From positions 1 to 33,956 of IMG/VR virus record IMGVR_UViG_3300030117_004569: a DNA stretch of 33,956 nucleotides. The stretch is one strand, 5' to 3'. Shown here piece after piece: positions 1 through 33,956 of the stretch. The DNA comes from a virus. How positions within the stretch are numbered: the stretch's first letter is position 1; each line of letters begins with the position of its first letter. The position numbers and the translations under genes were made by a program. A model generated the notes under the pieces. It was not told where the DNA came from and searched no databases. It worked only from the letters and a program-made list of their open reading frames with translations.

Positions 1-179
1 GCAGTTCGCCGGCAAGATACCTATGGTTCGCTTCCATGAGACTGAGCTGCGCTGTGATCTGCCTAATGGTGCAAGGATACAGCTGCTAGGTGCTGAAAAT
101 CCAGATTCACTCCGTGGAATCTACCTTGATATGGCCGTTCTTGATGAGATGGCTGACATGCCGGAGAGCTTGTTCCCTG
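1..179. repeat. Left copy of terminal overlap (circular junction)
   Basis: Bases 1-179 match 33778-33956 over their whole length with 14 mismatches and no gaps, about 92 percent identity. The first 60 and last 52 bases are identical; all mismatches lie between 64 and 127 and every one is synonymous in the terminase frame. The overlap joins the two halves of terL in frame, so the window is best read as a circular or terminally redundant genome whose ends come from two slightly different strains. Confidence 0.9.
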
Positions 180-7213: not shown

Positions 7214-10011
7214 TGACAAAAGCCAGCCCAGCCCTCAATAACTTTACAGCCGGTGAGCTCTCGCCGCGCCTGGATGGCCGCACCGACATTGTCAAATATT
7301 TCCAGGGCAGCAGGAAACTAGAAAATTTCACGGTGCATCCTCATGGCGGTGCTTCACGGCGGCCAGGCACTATCTTTGTGCGCGCTGTCAAAACAGCATC
7401 TGCAAAAACCAGGCTGATACCTTTTGAGTTCAATGTCGAACAGACTTACGCCCTGGAGTTTGGCAATGAGTATTTTCGCATCCATAAGGATGGCGGCACA
7501 GTTGTGTCCAGTGGTAGCCCGGTGGAGGTCACGACAGTCTATACAACGGCGCAGCTGCCAGATCTAAAATATGTGCAGTCAGCTGACGTGATGTACATCG
7601 TACATCCCAGCCATCCCGTCTATAAGATTACCCGCACCAGCGACACTGCCTGGACATTTACCCAGGTAGATTTTCGCCGGGGTCCAATGCAGGATGACAA
7701 CATTACAGACACAACGCTTTTGGCGAATGGCAGGACAGGCAGCGTAACAGTCACAGCCTCAGCTAGTTTGTTTGTTTCAACGGATGTTGGCCGGATAATC
7801 AGGCTTCATGATGGCTTTGCCAAAATCACTGCCTTTACCTCAGCCACTGTGGTCACAGCAACTGTGCAGGAAAATGTCGAGCGCAGAAGTGAGTTGATGC
7901 CATCAATGACAGCCACCACACTGGCATTTCACGAAGGCGACCCATCAGCCACTGGCCTGGAGCATAATGACCGCATCACAGATACCGCTGGTAATTTTGT
8001 AAAAGAAGGCTTTAAGAAAGGCATGAAGGTCACGACCACCGGGGCCGGCACTAGCGGGAACAATCAGGCCGCTATTTTGCTTGTCCAGGTCACCGAGGAC
8101 ACAATGCTTTTTGCCCCATCTGTTGATGTAACAGATGAGAGCGCAGGCCAAAGCATTACCATAGCGGGTGACCTAGAGGCTGACACAGATTTTGCCTTGG
8201 GCGCTTTTTCGGTCACAACAGGTTTTCCGGCAGCTGTCGCGTTTTATGAGGAACGGCTGACCTTTGCCAATACAACGGCGCAGCCCCAAACAATATTCTT
8301 TAGTGTAGCCGGTGACTTTGAGGATTTTGCTGATGGCATCGATGCAGACGATGCGCTGATCTATACCATTGGATCTAACCAGGTCAACGTGATCCGCTAC
8401 CTATCATCAAGTAGGGCGCTTATTGTCGGCACGTCTGGCGGTGAGTTTGCAGTTACAGCATCAGGCGGCCCAGAGCCGCTCAGCCCGACCAACGCACAAA
8501 TCAAGCGCCAGGCCTCATATGGCTCTGCCAACATCCAGCCGGTGCAAGTCGGTAACGTCACGCTCTTTGTGCAGCGCGCCAAGCGTAAGATCCGCGAGCT
8601 GGTCTACAATTTTGATACGGATTCATATCAGGCGCCTGATCTAACGATACTGGCAGAACACATAACAGATAGCGGCATTGTTGAGATAGCGCACCAGCAA
8701 GAGCCAGATAATGTGGTCTGGCTGGTTCTAGATGATGGCCGACTGGTCGGCATGACATACCGGCGCGAAGAGAATGTAATTGCTTTTCACAAGCACCTTT
8801 TTGGCGGCAAATCAGATACCGGCAAAACAATCACTGTGCAAAGCATTAGCTTTACGGCTAACAGCACCACGGTAAACACAAGCAATAATCGCATCACGCT
8901 GTCTAGCCACGGCCTGACAACCGGCGATCCAATTTACTATAACGCCAGCAGCAATTCGATTACTGGCCTTGATAATGAGAGCGTCTATTTTGTTATAAGT
9001 GTGGATAGCAATACCATCAGCCTGGCATCCAGCGCAGCAAATGCCTCTGCCGGCACGGCAATCACGCTGTACTCTGCGCCAAGCAGTGACACCACACAGC
9101 AGTTTTTCCAGGGCGTCAATATCGCTAACTCTAATATCTACTCGGCATCACATGGCCTCAAAACAGGCGATCTCATCTTTTATGAAACACCTGGCACGGC
9201 TATCGGTGGCCTGGCAGAAAACACCAGATATTTTGTGCAAAAGATCTCTGACAATGAGTTTCGGGTTGCAAGCTCGCTAGATTTTACCAATGACATTGTC
9301 GCGCTAACATCTGCGCCAGCCACTGAGCAAACCGATAAAATCCTGACCCATGCCAAGGTTGAGAGTATCGCCACGGTGCCGGGCGATCTAGACGAGGATG
9401 ACATCTATGTCATCGTGCAGCGCTACATAAATGGCAGCACTGTGCGCCATGTCGAGTATTTTTCTAACTATGATTTTGGCTCGGATGTAAATGATGCCTA
9501 TTTTGTTGATTGCGGCCTGACCTACTCCGGCGCAGCTGCCACAACAATCAGCGGTCTGACGCACCTAGAGGGCGAGACAGTCAGCATCCTGGCAGATGGC
9601 GCCACGCACCCAGACAAAACGGTGAGCTCTGGCTCCATAACGCTAGAGCGCGCAGCTGAGGTCGCTCATATAGGCCTTAACTACACCTCAACGATGGAAA
9701 CCATGCGCCTAGAGGCCGGCGATACTGAAGGCACCGCCCAGGGCCGTATAAAGCGCGTACACGGCGTCACCATGCGTTTGTATAGGTCGGTTGGGGCAAA
9801 GATAGGAAGCAGCGAGAATGAGCTTGATATCGTGCCTTTCAGATCCAGTGCAAACGTCATGGATACTGCAACGCCATTATTCACAGGCGATAAAGAAATA
9901 GAGTTTAGGGGAGGGTATGAGACCGAGGCCAGCATTGTTGTCCAGCAAGACCAGCCCCTGCCACTTACCATCTTGGCGCTATATCCGCGCCTAACCACAT
10001 TTGAGAGCTAA
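7213..10011 (+). CDS. Tail tubular protein B (T7 gp12-like nozzle) with inserted tandem domains
   Basis: A 932-residue nozzle protein that extends the tail tube. The N-terminus (ALNNFTAGELSPRLDGRTDIVKYFQGSRKLENFTVHPHGGASRRPGT) is diagnostic of the gp12-like family. The central TGFPAAVAFYEERLTFANT and the IGSNQVNVIRYLSSSRALIVGTSGGEFAV blade are also typical. It is about 140 residues longer than T7 gp12 (794). The extra length includes two similar beta domains, about residues 544-620 and 635-715, each with an SHGLxTGDxIxY start, an IxGL turn and a YFV strand. The C-terminal part (GRIKRVHGVTMRLYRSVGAKIG) resumes the normal family sequence. The ATG overlaps the upstream stop and the stop overlaps the following start. 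Confidence 0.93.
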   Translation: MTKASPALNNFTAGELSPRLDGRTDIVKYFQGSRKLENFTVHPHGGASRRPGTIFVRAVKTASAKTRLIPFEFNVEQTYALEFGNEYFRIHKDGGTVVSSGSPVEVTTVYTTAQLPDLKYVQSADVMYIVHPSHPVYKITRTSDTAWTFTQVDFRRGPMQDDNITDTTLLANGRTGSVTVTASASLFVSTDVGRIIRLHDGFAKITAFTSATVVTATVQENVERRSELMPSMTATTLAFHEGDPSATGLEHNDRITDTAGNFVKEGFKKGMKVTTTGAGTSGNNQAAILLVQVTEDTMLFAPSVDVTDESAGQSITIAGDLEADTDFALGAFSVTTGFPAAVAFYEERLTFANTTAQPQTIFFSVAGDFEDFADGIDADDALIYTIGSNQVNVIRYLSSSRALIVGTSGGEFAVTASGGPEPLSPTNAQIKRQASYGSANIQPVQVGNVTLFVQRAKRKIRELVYNFDTDSYQAPDLTILAEHITDSGIVEIAHQQEPDNVVWLVLDDGRLVGMTYRREENVIAFHKHLFGGKSDTGKTITVQSISFTANSTTVNTSNNRITLSSHGLTTGDPIYYNASSNSITGLDNESVYFVISVDSNTISLASSAANASAGTAITLYSAPSSDTTQQFFQGVNIANSNIYSASHGLKTGDLIFYETPGTAIGGLAENTRYFVQKISDNEFRVASSLDFTNDIVALTSAPATEQTDKILTHAKVESIATVPGDLDEDDIYVIVQRYINGSTVRHVEYFSNYDFGSDVNDAYFVDCGLTYSGAAATTISGLTHLEGETVSILADGATHPDKTVSSGSITLERAAEVAHIGLNYTSTMETMRLEAGDTEGTAQGRIKRVHGVTMRLYRSVGAKIGSSENELDIVPFRSSANVMDTATPLFTGDKEIEFRGGYETEASIVVQQDQPLPLTILALYPRLTTFES

Positions 10012-24259: not shown

Positions 24260-24330
24260 CCGGGTCACAAACTTTTTGTGACCCAAATAAAAATTGATTC
24301 ACAGCTGGGTCACAAACGGGTCACGTGCCT

Positions 24331-24360
24331 GACGTAACTGGGCGTAACCAGGCGTAACTC
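24331..24360. repeat. Three 10-base-spaced GCGTAAC repeats
   Basis: Three consecutive decamers, gacgtaactg, ggcgtaacca and ggcgtaactc, share the core CGTAAC and are spaced exactly one helical turn apart. They lie between the left arm repeats and the core. Such phased repeats fit cooperative binding of an excisionase; the minus-strand HTH gene at 26576 is the obvious candidate partner. Confidence 0.65.
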
Positions 24361-24430
24361 AAACATTACGTATTGCTTTATGTGGCTTCATGTGGCACGT
24401 ATGGACTTGTAATGCATCAATGTTTTGACA

Positions 24431-24455
24431 GGTTCGAGTCCCGTCACTCCCGCCA
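24431..24455 (+). other. tRNA 3'-end segment, probable att core
   Basis: The segment GGTTCGAGTCCCGTC, then ACTCCCGCCA, has the anatomy of a tRNA 3' end: T-stem and T-loop TTCGAGT (24433-24439), T-stem CCCGT, seven acceptor bases CACTCCC, discriminator G and CCA ending at 24455. The upstream bases do not complete a tRNA. Integrases often use such a segment so that the host tRNA is restored after integration. The T-arm and G discriminator look most like tRNA-Asp, but the isotype is uncertain. Confidence 0.75.
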
Positions 24456-24589
24456 CGCAAGCCATTGTTTTCATTACGAAAGCGATGGTTTTTTTGCGTT
24501 TGGGTCACAAATGGGTCACAAAGCATTTTTAAAAAAAATGAAATTTTACCAAAGTGGGTGCGGGATTTTTCCCTTTCCCGGTCTTGATC

Positions 24590-24629
24590 TTTACGTTAAC
24601 CGTCAATATATATGTTGTGTAAGGTAAAG
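24590..24629 (+). promoter_or_regulatory. Candidate promoter/operator of the integrase operon
   Basis: TTTACGT (24590-24596) and the nearby inverted GTAAAG (24624-24629) flank TTAACCGTCAATATATA and TGTTGTGTAAGGT. A -35-like TTAACC and an extended -10-like TAAGGT with 18-base spacing are possible. AAGGGAG (24631-24637) is the ribosome binding site of the next gene. The TTTACGT and ACCGTCAAT words recur in the immunity region, hinting at control by the same repressor. Confidence 0.5.
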
Positions 24630-24645
24630 AAAGGGAGACAAAACA

Positions 24646-24912
24646 ATGGACACCATCAAGATAGGCAAGGTCTTTTATGATGATCACTGTGAACGTGATT
24701 TGATTGCGCCAACAATCATTCGTCAGACCAAGGCTCACTATTTCATCGATGGCACAGACAACGAGGCTCTGCGTGAGCTGCTGAGTGATGCAGATTATTA
24801 CAAGGAACACTCTGGGTTTGAGCCTGAGCTTTTCGGCCTGTGCCGCTCGGCGGTCGCAACACACGCAGCCATCAGCAAGCACCTAGAAAGCATTGGTGCA
24901 GCAGCGGCCTAA
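24646..24912 (+). CDS. Small protein upstream of integrase, unknown function
   Basis: An 88-residue protein with a strong AAGGGAG site nine bases before the ATG. It starts MDTIKIGKVFYDDHCERDLIAPTIIRQTKAHYFIDG, predicted beta-rich, and ends in helices (NEALRELLSDADYYKEH, then ATHAAISKHLESIGAAAA). No family is recognised. It is the first gene of the int transcript and ends 26 bases before the integrase start, so it may be a regulator or accessory factor of integration; this is only positional inference. Confidence 0.75.
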   Translation: MDTIKIGKVFYDDHCERDLIAPTIIRQTKAHYFIDGTDNEALRELLSDADYYKEHSGFEPELFGLCRSAVATHAAISKHLESIGAAAA

Positions 24913-24938: not shown

Positions 24939-26057
24939 ATGGAAATAGATGTAAGCCAATATTCCTCACGTGCTAAGGAAGGCAAGTCCTCATGGTGCGT
25001 TGACACTCGTTCTCTGGTAAACAATGGCAAGCAGGAATTTTTCAAAACCAAGGCCGAGGCCAAGGCCTATGCTAAGCACGTTGCAGCCGAGATCAACCCG
25101 GCCAGCTCGCAGGCCTGGGACTGGACGTTTAAGCAGCTGTGCGACAGCTACCTTGCTCACGTACAACAAGAGTTTGACGATGGCGAGATCAAGCGCTCTA
25201 ACATGCTGGAGAAAAAACGCCACGCTAGATGCTTTGTCAAACTGACCCTAGATAACCACAAGCTCACTAGCTACAAGGTGCGTGATCTTACCGCCGGCCA
25301 GATCAAGTTGCAGCTGATGAACCAGCTGAAGAAAAACCGCACAATCAAGACAGTCAAAAACATCATGGGCAATGTACGCCTGATGTTTGATTACGCGATT
25401 GATTCTGGCTGTCGCAACAGCAACCCGGCTCTCGGCGTCAAGGCCAAGGGTTCCAAGGGCGCCGGTAAAGGCTTGGCAGTCAAACCTAACGAAAGCATGA
25501 TCGACAATGTCATAGCGCATATGACGCCTGTGTGGCAGCTGCGCGCTGAGTTTGCAGCGACCACTGGCCTGCGCCAGGGCGAACAGCGCGCTCTCTTGTG
25601 GGCTGACCTTGTTGACCATGACTTTAAAAAGGTTGATGTCAATAAAGCAGTCGAACACCGGGCTGGCGTTGGCGATACAAAGACGCCGGCTGGTAAGCGT
25701 AAGGTGCCGCTGTCGCCAGACGTAGCCAAGAAAATGAAAGAGCTGTGGATGGCCGAGGGCCGGCCTATGAAGGGCCTGGTGTTCCCGTCACGCACGGGGC
25801 ATGTGCTATCAGACAGTAGGTTCCTGCCGGCCATACACGCTGCCTGCGATGCAGCTGGTGTTGCGCGCATCAGGTGGCACGATCTGCGCCACTACTATGC
25901 CTCTAAGCTCTTGCAGGCCTTCCCTGGCGACTGGTGGACTGTCACCAACCTGATGGGCCATGAGAGCATCAAGACAACCACAGAGATATATGGGCATTGG
26001 CTTGACGATGACGCACGTGACGCCGAGGTCGCTGATAAAATATCGGAGATCTTTTAA
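24939..26057 (+). CDS. int: Tyrosine recombinase (phage integrase)
   Basis: A 372-residue integrase catalysing site-specific insertion and excision between attP and the host tRNA site. The ATG at 24939 has AAGGGAGG upstream; the longer frame starting at 24840 overlaps the preceding gene and is not likely used. The N-terminus shows an arm-binding-like domain (SSWCVDTRSLVNNGKQEFFKTKAEAKAYAKHV), followed by a core-binding SAM-like domain. The catalytic residues are R212 (TTGLRQGEQRA), H314 and R317 (WHDLRHYYASKLL), H341 (LMGHESIKTT) and Y351 (EIYGHW). The candidate attP lies immediately upstream. The stop abuts the next start (TAATGG). Confidence 0.96.
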   Translation: MEIDVSQYSSRAKEGKSSWCVDTRSLVNNGKQEFFKTKAEAKAYAKHVAAEINPASSQAWDWTFKQLCDSYLAHVQQEFDDGEIKRSNMLEKKRHARCFVKLTLDNHKLTSYKVRDLTAGQIKLQLMNQLKKNRTIKTVKNIMGNVRLMFDYAIDSGCRNSNPALGVKAKGSKGAGKGLAVKPNESMIDNVIAHMTPVWQLRAEFAATTGLRQGEQRALLWADLVDHDFKKVDVNKAVEHRAGVGDTKTPAGKRKVPLSPDVAKKMKELWMAEGRPMKGLVFPSRTGHVLSDSRFLPAIHAACDAAGVARIRWHDLRHYYASKLLQAFPGDWWTVTNLMGHESIKTTTEIYGHWLDDDARDAEVADKISEIF

Positions 26058-29257: not shown

Positions 29258-30034
29258 TTATGCCGAATTATTTATTTTTAAAAGCGTATCTGTTTCCATA
29301 TCAGCCCAGACAACGCCATGAAATTCTGGCTGCTCGATCATTACAATTCCTGGCGATGCCCATTTAATTTTTAGGTTTGTGTAATTTCCAAAATAATGCG
29401 ACTCCATTGCATAAGTATTGCGGCCTGACTGGTAAAGGATGCCATACAGCAGTTCATTATTCTCAGTCATGGCACAGCAATATTTGCCGAGCGCCCTTGA
29501 ATCAACTGCGCTGGTAACAACTGGGTTTCTTGGCATCAGGCTTATCATGCCGTGCATCCAAGAACAGGCGTGGTCTTCGAGCCCTTCTAAATCCCAGTAG
29601 ACTGCCATCATATCGTCAGCAAAATAGTCGTGCATATAAACGGCTTTGTTGGCGTATTTTTGGGAACGACCAGTGGTCCACATATGTGAAAGAATCAAAG
29701 GTGGGTTTTTGCCGGCATCAGCGCCAAGCATGATGGATTCGTGATCGTTACAATATTTTGTGGAGTCATCTGCCCAGGCATTTACAACTGCTAAAACCGG
29801 GATTGGCGGGTTGGCAAAAAATATCTCCATTGTTTTGCATTTGAGGATTTTTGCATAATCCTCAGCATCAGACAGGCTGATAGCTATATCCCCAGATTTA
29901 TGGCGTGACAATGTGCCGGGCTGGACGCCCTTGAGCTCGGCGACCATCTGGTTTTTGAGGCCAGACCTGACCACCATTTTATGTAAGTTATTAGGTGCCA
30001 CCGGAATATCCGCGCTAGTTTTACTAGTAACCAT
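29258..30034 (-). CDS. CI-like repressor with atypical C-terminal domain
   Basis: A 258-residue protein. The ATG at 30034 has AAAGAGG five bases upstream, so the longer frame to 30145 is unlikely. Residues about 20-75 (MVVRSGLKNQMVAELKGVQPGTLSRHKSGDIAISLSDAEDYAKILKC) form an XRE-type helix-turn-helix. The rest (VNAWADDSTKYCNDHESIMLGADAG, then YANKAVYMHDYFADDMMAVYWDLEGLEDH, ending WASPGIVMIEQPEFHGVVWADM) has beta character but no Gly-Asp-Ser-Met or catalytic lysine of S24/LexA peptidases. It is transcribed leftwards, divergent from a Cro-like gene, as an immunity repressor should be. Confidence 0.8.
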   Translation of the reverse strand: MVTSKTSADIPVAPNNLHKMVVRSGLKNQMVAELKGVQPGTLSRHKSGDIAISLSDAEDYAKILKCKTMEIFFANPPIPVLAVVNAWADDSTKYCNDHESIMLGADAGKNPPLILSHMWTTGRSQKYANKAVYMHDYFADDMMAVYWDLEGLEDHACSWMHGMISLMPRNPVVTSAVDSRALGKYCCAMTENNELLYGILYQSGRNTYAMESHYFGNYTNLKIKWASPGIVMIEQPEFHGVVWADMETDTLLKINNSA

Positions 30035-30143
30035 TGTCGCCTCTTTGTCGTTTACCGTCAATCTGCTTTCACAGTTAAATTGCTTTACGGCTTGTGTCAA
30101 GTGCATTACAGTCTGTTGAATATCAGTTATGCGGATTGTGTAC
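30035..30143. promoter_or_regulatory. Divergent repressor/Cro control region
   Basis: This 109-base gap separates the leftward repressor and rightward Cro-like gene. It contains TTTACCGTCAAT (30051-30062), TTTACGG (30084-30090), CTTG-tgt-CAAG (30091-30101) and ATTACAG (30105-30111). Related words, TTTACGTTAACCGTCAAT, stand upstream of the integrase operon. It should contain both lysogenic and lytic early promoters and their operators, although exact promoter boxes could not be fixed by eye. Confidence 0.65.
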
Positions 30144-30356
30144 ATGCTATTGAACGACTATAGGCTTAAAAAGGGCTGGCACTATACGGATTTAGCCCGT
30201 CTGGTTGGTGTAAAACACGCCACGATAGTGCGGCGTTGGTGCTTGCCGCATGGTGACAAGGACCGGCTAATCCCTCGCGCCGACAACATGGATAAAATCA
30301 TCGTGCTGACCAATGGCGAGGTCATGCCGAATGATTTCTATATGCGCCGTGACTGA
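30144..30356 (+). CDS. Cro-like helix-turn-helix protein
   Basis: A 70-residue protein: LLNDYRLKKGWHYTDLARLVGVKHATIVRRWCLP is a compact helix-turn-helix with VGVKHATIVRRW as recognition helix, followed by HGDKDRLIPRADNMDKIIVLTNGEVMPNDFY. The latter segment is the usual dimerising tail of small phage regulators. The ATG at 30144 is preferred to the one at 30129 because of a GGA eight bases upstream. It diverges from the repressor gene and begins the rightward early operon, so a Cro-type switch function is inferred. Confidence 0.82.
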   Translation: MLLNDYRLKKGWHYTDLARLVGVKHATIVRRWCLPHGDKDRLIPRADNMDKIIVLTNGEVMPNDFYMRRD

Positions 30357-33547: not shown

Positions 33548-33956
33548 ATGAACATCGAAATCCCCTATTCCCCAAGGCCGCTGCAGGCTCAGATCCACTC
33601 TGAGCTGTCTGAGAAGCGCTGGGGCGTAGTCGTGCTACACCGCCGAGCTGGCAAGACAGTCATGGCGATTAATCACTTGCTAAGGGAAGCTGTGCTTAAC
33701 CAGCATACCAACCCTCGCTGTGCTTACATAGCGCCCACCTATCGGCAGGCTAAGGCCGTTGCCTGGGACTACCTCAAGCAGTTCGCCGGCAAGATACCTA
33801 TGGTTCGCTTCCATGAGACTGAGCTGCGCTGTGATCTGCCCAATGGTGCAAGGATTCAGCTGCTGGGTGCTGAGAATCCTGACAGCCTGCGTGGAATATA
33901 TTTGGATATGGCCGTTCTTGATGAGATGGCTGACATGCCGGAGAGCTTGTTCCCTG
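33548..33956 (+). CDS. terL: Terminase large subunit, N-terminal part (continues at window start)
   Basis: The first 136 residues of the packaging ATPase, open at the right edge. It shows MNIEIPYSPRPLQAQIHSELSEKRWGVVVL, then the Walker A motif HRRAGKT (residues 31-37), CAYIAPTYRQAKAVAWDYLK with the adenine-binding-type strand, and Walker B AVLDEMAD (D125, E126). Bases 33778-33956 repeat the window's first 179 bases and the same protein, so the gene continues at position 2; the joined product is 427 residues. Confidence 0.93.
   Translation, partial: MNIEIPYSPRPLQAQIHSELSEKRWGVVVLHRRAGKTVMAINHLLREAVLNQHTNPRCAYIAPTYRQAKAVAWDYLKQFAGKIPMVRFHETELRCDLPNGARIQLLGAENPDSLRGIYLDMAVLDEMADMPESLFP
33778..33956. 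repeat. Right copy of terminal overlap (circular junction)
   Basis: Same 179-base segment as bases 1-179, with 14 synonymous mismatches clustered in the middle. The two copies are exactly at the ends of the window, which is expected of a circular or terminally redundant genome closed through a strain variant. Confidence 0.9.

Follow-up and report, generated by a model that had tools for sequence, protein, structure and literature searches.

The stretch between positions 24260 and 24645 of the viral DNA analysed here (the window, an IMG/VR virus record of 33,956 bases with a G+C content of 51%) is, with high probability, the attP of a temperate HTVC010P-like podovirus. The overall explanation which we consider well founded is that the arm words of this attP are read by the N-terminal domain of the neighbouring integrase, that three residues of the domain would account for the specificity, and that residues and words have switched together among relatives. 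An attP in which arms accompany a tRNA core belongs to a known class of sites and is ordinary in itself. The comparison across the family, on the other hand, provides a concrete and falsifiable rule for arm-site choice by tyrosine integrases, a matter which, in the literature found, has so far been addressed by lambda structures and a few mycobacteriophages.

The affiliation of the virus is based on its portal and capsid proteins, whose homology to the corresponding proteins of HTVC010P-type pelagiphages extends over most of their length, the feature used to assign a podovirus to this type. Among the best matches, the portal is 57-62% identical with about 91% covered, and the capsid 61-67% identical with 98-100% covered. 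The window virus differs from these pelagiphages in its higher G+C content and in the possession of an integrase and an attP. A comparison of the window from position 10000 to its end with the phage collection returned no near DNA match. The sections of Mizuno et al. 2013 (PMC3861242) drawn on here concern phages from Mediterranean fosmids, which are likewise marine and in which an integrase and an exact partial tRNA serve as host evidence, and they contain no description of arm sites; their group G18, linked to Alphaproteobacteria of SAR116 type, is similar to the window phage in genome size and lower to similar in G+C content. The IMG/VR record is classed as a virus record and carries no completeness value. 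At the two ends of the window (1-179 and 33778-33956), about 180 bases of the terminase gene are repeated with several mismatches, which would fit the joining of two variants of a genome, either concatemeric or read as a circle. Further along, a repressor-like gene (29258-30145, minus strand) and a gene for a small HTH protein (30129-30356, plus strand) are divergently arranged, have weak HTH matches and probably constitute the lysogeny switch.

The attP elements occupy the interval which separates a small basic ORF from the tyrosine integrase module, 0.5 kb upstream of the integrase gene (Table 1). GGGTCAC lies at 24262, 24307, 24318, 24502 and 24513 on the plus strand and, inverted, at 24278, which places four copies to the left of the core (one of them inverted) and two to the right. 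The pairs 24307/24318 and 24502/24513 are each spaced by 11 bp, and the inverted copies at 24262 and 24275 pair with each other as a perfect hairpin of 10 bp. With both strands counted, six of the ten copies in the window fall inside these 386 bases. Dinucleotide shuffles of the region contained any 7-mer at least six times in only 21-22 of 2000 cases, and three exact 6-mers at a period of 10 in none of 2000; the CGTAAC words (24333, 24343 and 24353) are the sole such triple in the 34-kb window. These elements had been listed in an earlier note made from the letters alone, and they are real: all coordinates proved exact and both kinds of repeat exceed the shuffled expectation. That note overlooked the stem-loop which directly follows the core (-19.6 kcal/mol, z -5.65) and which has counterparts of different sequence at the equivalent position in the related groups B and C. 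Such a structure would replace the tRNA terminator cut off by integration.

Table 1. Elements of the putative attP and of the adjacent integrase gene, in window coordinates.
Feature	Position	Strand	Remark
Arm site 1	24262..24271	+	GGGTCACAAA
Arm site 2, inverted copy	24275..24284	-	pairs with arm site 1 as a 10-bp hairpin
Arm site 3	24307..24316	+	GGGTCACAAA
Arm site 4	24318..24324	+	GGGTCAC, 11 bp from site 3
Three CGTAAC words, 10-bp period	24333..24358	+	possible Xis-type site
attP core	24431..24455	+	last 25 nt of tRNA-Asp(GTC) including CCA
Stem-loop, then T run	24459..24491	+	after integration, probably replaces the terminator of the host tRNA
Arm site 5, right arm	24502..24511	+	GGGTCACAAA
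Arm site 6, right arm	24513..24522	+	11 bp from site 5
88-aa ORF between attP and int	24646..24912	+	without PHROG or Pfam match
Tyrosine integrase, 372 aa	24939..26057	+	phrog_1, PF00589 (E 1.4e-18)
Integrase residue 16 codon (Lys)	24984..24986	+	associated with arm-word base N2
Integrase residue 25 codon (Ser)	25011..25013	+	associated with arm-word base N8
Integrase residue 32 codon (Gln)	25032..25034	+	associated with arm-word bases N5N6

Upstream of the integrase gene, the stretch CTTGATCTTTACGTTAACCGTCAATATATA (24585-24615) occurs once in the window, has the counterparts TTGACGGAAACCGTCACTATAT in groups B and C, and by its sequence resembles a promoter of int overlapped by a palindromic operator. 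The integrase of the relatives L085 and L086 lies much nearer to the core, and the 88-aa ORF therefore seems to be missing there.

The core is identical at 25 of 25 nucleotides to tRNA-Asp(GTC) genes. As the earlier note had described, it is a tRNA 3' segment without the remaining tRNA. Its copy is unique in the window and ARAGORN finds no complete tRNA there; the bacterial tRNA with this 3' end, which had been expected, was found to be tRNA-Asp(GTC). The 25-mer lies inside a complete tRNA in seven viral contigs and in seven bacterial genomes, and ARAGORN identifies this tRNA as tRNA-Asp in all cases. The exact core is present in 82 viral contig stretches, most of which have an integrase about 1.5 kb or less downstream, and these integrases belong to several families, down to remote similarity. 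A different element, in a bacterial genome, was also found flanked by the 25-mer within tRNA-Asp (G489:C1:886500-930000, L332-L334); it is 39.4 kb long, has a G+C content of 35% and podovirus-like genes, and encodes an integrase of a type unrelated to that of the window. Given the several integrase families and this element, the core is a much-used attB. The earlier note had called for a search for prophages flanked by the core. This other podovirus-like element is the one core-flanked copy that came to light; for the window phage and its close relatives, the core-bearing viral contigs yielded neither attL/attR nor a hybrid junction. Integration of the window phage is predicted to leave a junction consisting of the tRNA-Asp 5' part, the core and then CGCAAGCCATTG. 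Two further genomes (G437:C47 and G501:C30) have two core copies 113-117 bases apart, apparently tandem tRNA-Asp genes, so that some genomes may offer two neighbouring attB sites.

The core had also been thought to reveal the host lineage. It does not, because several bacterial lineages carry it: among 398 Pseudomonadota genomes sampled, 7 contained the 25-mer, with a local G+C content of 33-71%, and in one order it was present in 41 of 131 genomes; naming a host on this basis was rejected. Searches with the integrase gave only distant matches in named genomes (25-35% identity), no relative at E 1e-40 in 131 genomes of the order of genome G066, and a best value of 1e-39 in 249 genomes of the order of G247, where matches lay mostly beyond the N-domain.

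In the AlphaFold model of the integrase (mean pLDDT 85.7), the N-domain has strands at residues 5-7, 19-22 and 32-35 and a helix at 38-52, and Foldseek matches the model to 1z1b, 1z1g and 5j0n, among the lambda Int and Tn1549 Int structures. On the predicted fold, the first 52 residues are the three strands and helix of arm-binding domains, in an architecture of lambda-Int type. The catalytic residues R212, K248, H314, R317, H341 and Y351 are invariant in A5. Searches with the N-domain against PDB sequences returned no integrase, nor was any integrase among the matches listed for the N-domain consensus against phage and plasmid records. The combination of a core equal to a tRNA 3' end and an integrase with an arm-type N-domain points to the attP of a temperate phage aimed at the 3' end of tRNA-Asp.

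The phased CGTAAC triple, lying between left arm and core, had been read as a set of excisionase (Xis) sites controlling excision together with the arms. Its helical phasing, its placement and its conservation in four group A sequences agree with such a role; against it, these four sequences are near-identical, the triple is absent from groups B and C despite a shared core and related integrases, and no Xis-like protein was recognised among those tested with PHROG and Pfam. The phased triple is a firm observation, and its identity as Xis sites a tentative reading which we regard as rather doubtful. From the complete recombination site proposed in the earlier note, the tRNA-Asp core, the nearby integrase and the arm-like repeats tracking the N-domain are retained, and host identification and Xis sites are not.

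Arm-type repeats flank the core on both sides and their words covary with the integrase N-domain. The arm copies of a given attP, the inverted one among them, mostly carry a single word, which differs between relatives: the words GGGTCACA, GGGTGCCA, GTGTGCCA, GTGTGCCT, GGGTGCCT and GGGTGCCG were observed, as were CAGTGCCA, CAGTGCCT, CGGTCACT, CGGTGCCA, GCATCACA and GCATGCCA. The word differs even between integrases which are up to 99% identical in their catalytic part, and both arms change as a set, with the core and the inter-arm spacer conserved. Since they track the N-domain across relatives, the GGGTCAC repeats behave as integrase arm sites, and they are considered putative arm-type sites bound by this domain. 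Homogeneous words differing between close relatives also occur in other families with the tRNA-Asp core and other N-domains, such as L007, L034 and L042 (GGTGCCAAA, TGGGGCT and TGGGGAC) and the L013/L012/L053/L041 group (TTGGGTACG, TGGGGAGTAA, TGGGGAAGAT and TTGGATAC); the L016/L064 group, again with other N-domains, has CAGTCCAGTT and TGTTATAG.

Over about 45 integrases, the identity of the word, written N1N2N3-T-N5N6-C-N8, goes with that of three N-domain residues. Residue 16 corresponds to N2 (K or R with G, H with T, W with C, L or Q with A), residue 32 to N5N6 (Q with CA, R with GC) and residue 25 to N8 (Y with T, a small residue with A, F with G); K16, S25 and Q32 of the window integrase fit GGG-T-CA-C-A. 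A training set supplied both the word alignment and the rule, whose first version, fixed before the later scans, assigned residue 16 to N1-3, 25 to N8 and 32 to N5N6. Residue 16 was narrowed to N2 after later cases, and the two fresh cases since then, L377 and L378, both fit. An extension of the code to the L007/L034/L042, L013, L016 and L064 groups was attempted and no simple rule was seen.

In a comparison against 30 candidate words, the predicted one ranked first, alone or jointly, in all 31 informative training attPs, and first in four of six later ones. In the pooled set the right 8-mer was the unique best in 34 of 37 scorable attPs; over 5000 shuffled assignments this number averaged 4.9 and never exceeded 14. 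The later finds comprise seven exact, four partial and four failed predictions, some of these cases having N-domains close to training ones. Exact fits include L201 and L302, which have short upstream sequence, and L377, from the third scan; L198, L284, L307 and L378 fit at N2, N5N6 and N8 and deviate at N1, N3 or T4. The rule fails for L224 and L263, whose N-domains are distant, for L275, whose repeats are poor, and for L282, which combines K16 with mixed, mostly CAG words. The catalytic part of L282 is 99% identical to that of L286 (L16, CAG), and on this analysis L282 looks like a transitional site, as has been proposed for phage Adephagia.

It could be argued that the site is an ordinary attP and that common descent or the swapping of cassettes has produced the association between residues and words as a side effect, with other N-domain residues doing the reading. 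Arms and the part of int encoding the N-domain lie within about 0.7 kb and could travel as a block, and L002 and L005 differ by a patch of eight N-domain residues, as after a segment exchange. Such an origin is nevertheless unlikely. On a tree of catalytic columns, the same pairings of residue and base arise repeatedly in separate changes, at least 16 for N2, 12 for N5N6 and 10 for N8; the tree was built quickly and has some long branches, so that these counts are approximate. Residues 16 and 32 stand far ahead of every other integrase column, with a pair-phi of 0.92 for N2 (next 0.44) and 1.00 for N6 (next 0.40), respectively; for N8, residue 25 leads all columns in mutual information (0.70, next 0.36), but is only third by pair-phi. 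In phylogenetically independent pairs, the expected change was found in five of five for N6 and residue 32, seven of seven for N8 and residue 25, and about eight of nine for N2 and residue 16, with none in the opposite direction. Block transfer also fits poorly with the conservation of core and inter-arm spacer while both arms change.

Four pairs (L004/L075, L004/L065, L002/L005 and L124/L128) are, as far as sequence comparison goes, near-natural experiments. The N-domain core (residues 8-36) of L004 and L075 differs only by I27V, R32Q and S33R, and their words differ only by GC to CA. L002 and L005 share 99% identity in their catalytic part, and R16W and Y25T accompany a change of word from CGGTCACT to GCATCACA. 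That the GGGTCAC words are instead repressor operators or pieces of a transcription terminator is very improbable: sites 1 and 2 do form a strong hairpin directly after the stop codon of the upstream ORF, but the words flank the core on both sides at 11-bp spacing, change as a set following the integrase N-domain, and have no second cluster among the scattered remaining copies in the window.

In the preferred reading, recombination by the integrase would take place between the 25-bp core and a bacterial tRNA-Asp gene whose 3' end is identical to it; the tRNA would be restored by the core, and the hairpin behind the core would supply a terminator. The six GGGTCAC words would be bound by the three-stranded N-terminal domain, as their covariation suggests, with specificity arising mainly from predicted contacts of residue 16 with N2, residue 25 with N8 and residue 32 with N5N6. 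Relatives with nearly identical catalytic domains appear to have changed these residues and their arm words together while keeping the chromosomal target. The gain would probably be mutual non-interference, with each integrase leaving untouched the sites of other phages that use a common attB. We lean slightly towards the broader proposal that the arm words of this marine subfamily follow a near-modular three-residue code and that selection among phages sharing the tRNA-Asp attB drives rapid, concerted switching of the arms and so maintains private integrase-attP pairs.

If the rule is true, one to three substitutions could alter arm specificity with an unchanged catalytic domain, orthogonal integrase-attP pairs could be obtained for laboratory genetics, attP sites could be predicted from integrase sequences in metagenomes, and insight would be gained into the independence of phages which share one insertion site. 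The word preference of the window N-domain and of its K16H, K16W, S25Y and Q32R forms would then differ among GGGTCACAAA, GTGTCACAAA, GCATCACAAA, GGGTCACTAA and GGGTGCCAAA.

Among known systems, phage lambda has an integrase with an N-terminal arm-binding domain of matching fold, and its arm words CAGTCACTAT and CAGTCAAAAT fit the template NNN-T-CA. Lambda has a non-tRNA target site and makes use of IHF, Xis and Fis, and its N-domain residues align too poorly with the window family for the code to be tested. In the open-licence literature searched, the only precedent for an arm-site code was found in the K1 mycobacteriophages, and no multi-position arm rule over some 45 integrases was found. 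The K1 phages CrimD, Anaya and Adephagia have a tmRNA-derived 3' core, paired arm sites on both sides and a stem-loop or terminator between core and right arm; they share one attB with different arm words, for which integrase residues 17 and 19 were proposed as candidates and Adephagia as a transitional phage (Pope et al. 2011, PMC3203893). An extension of the code to their integrases was abandoned, as the N-domain is too different for confident alignment. The K1 attP thus resembles that of the window in its tRNA-like core, two-sided arms, stem-loop and divergent words at one attB, and differs in its integrase N-domain and arm word, its four arm sites, the few phages concerned and the candidate status of the residues (PMC3203893), whereas the window family offers a three-position rule across about 45 integrases with repeated switches.
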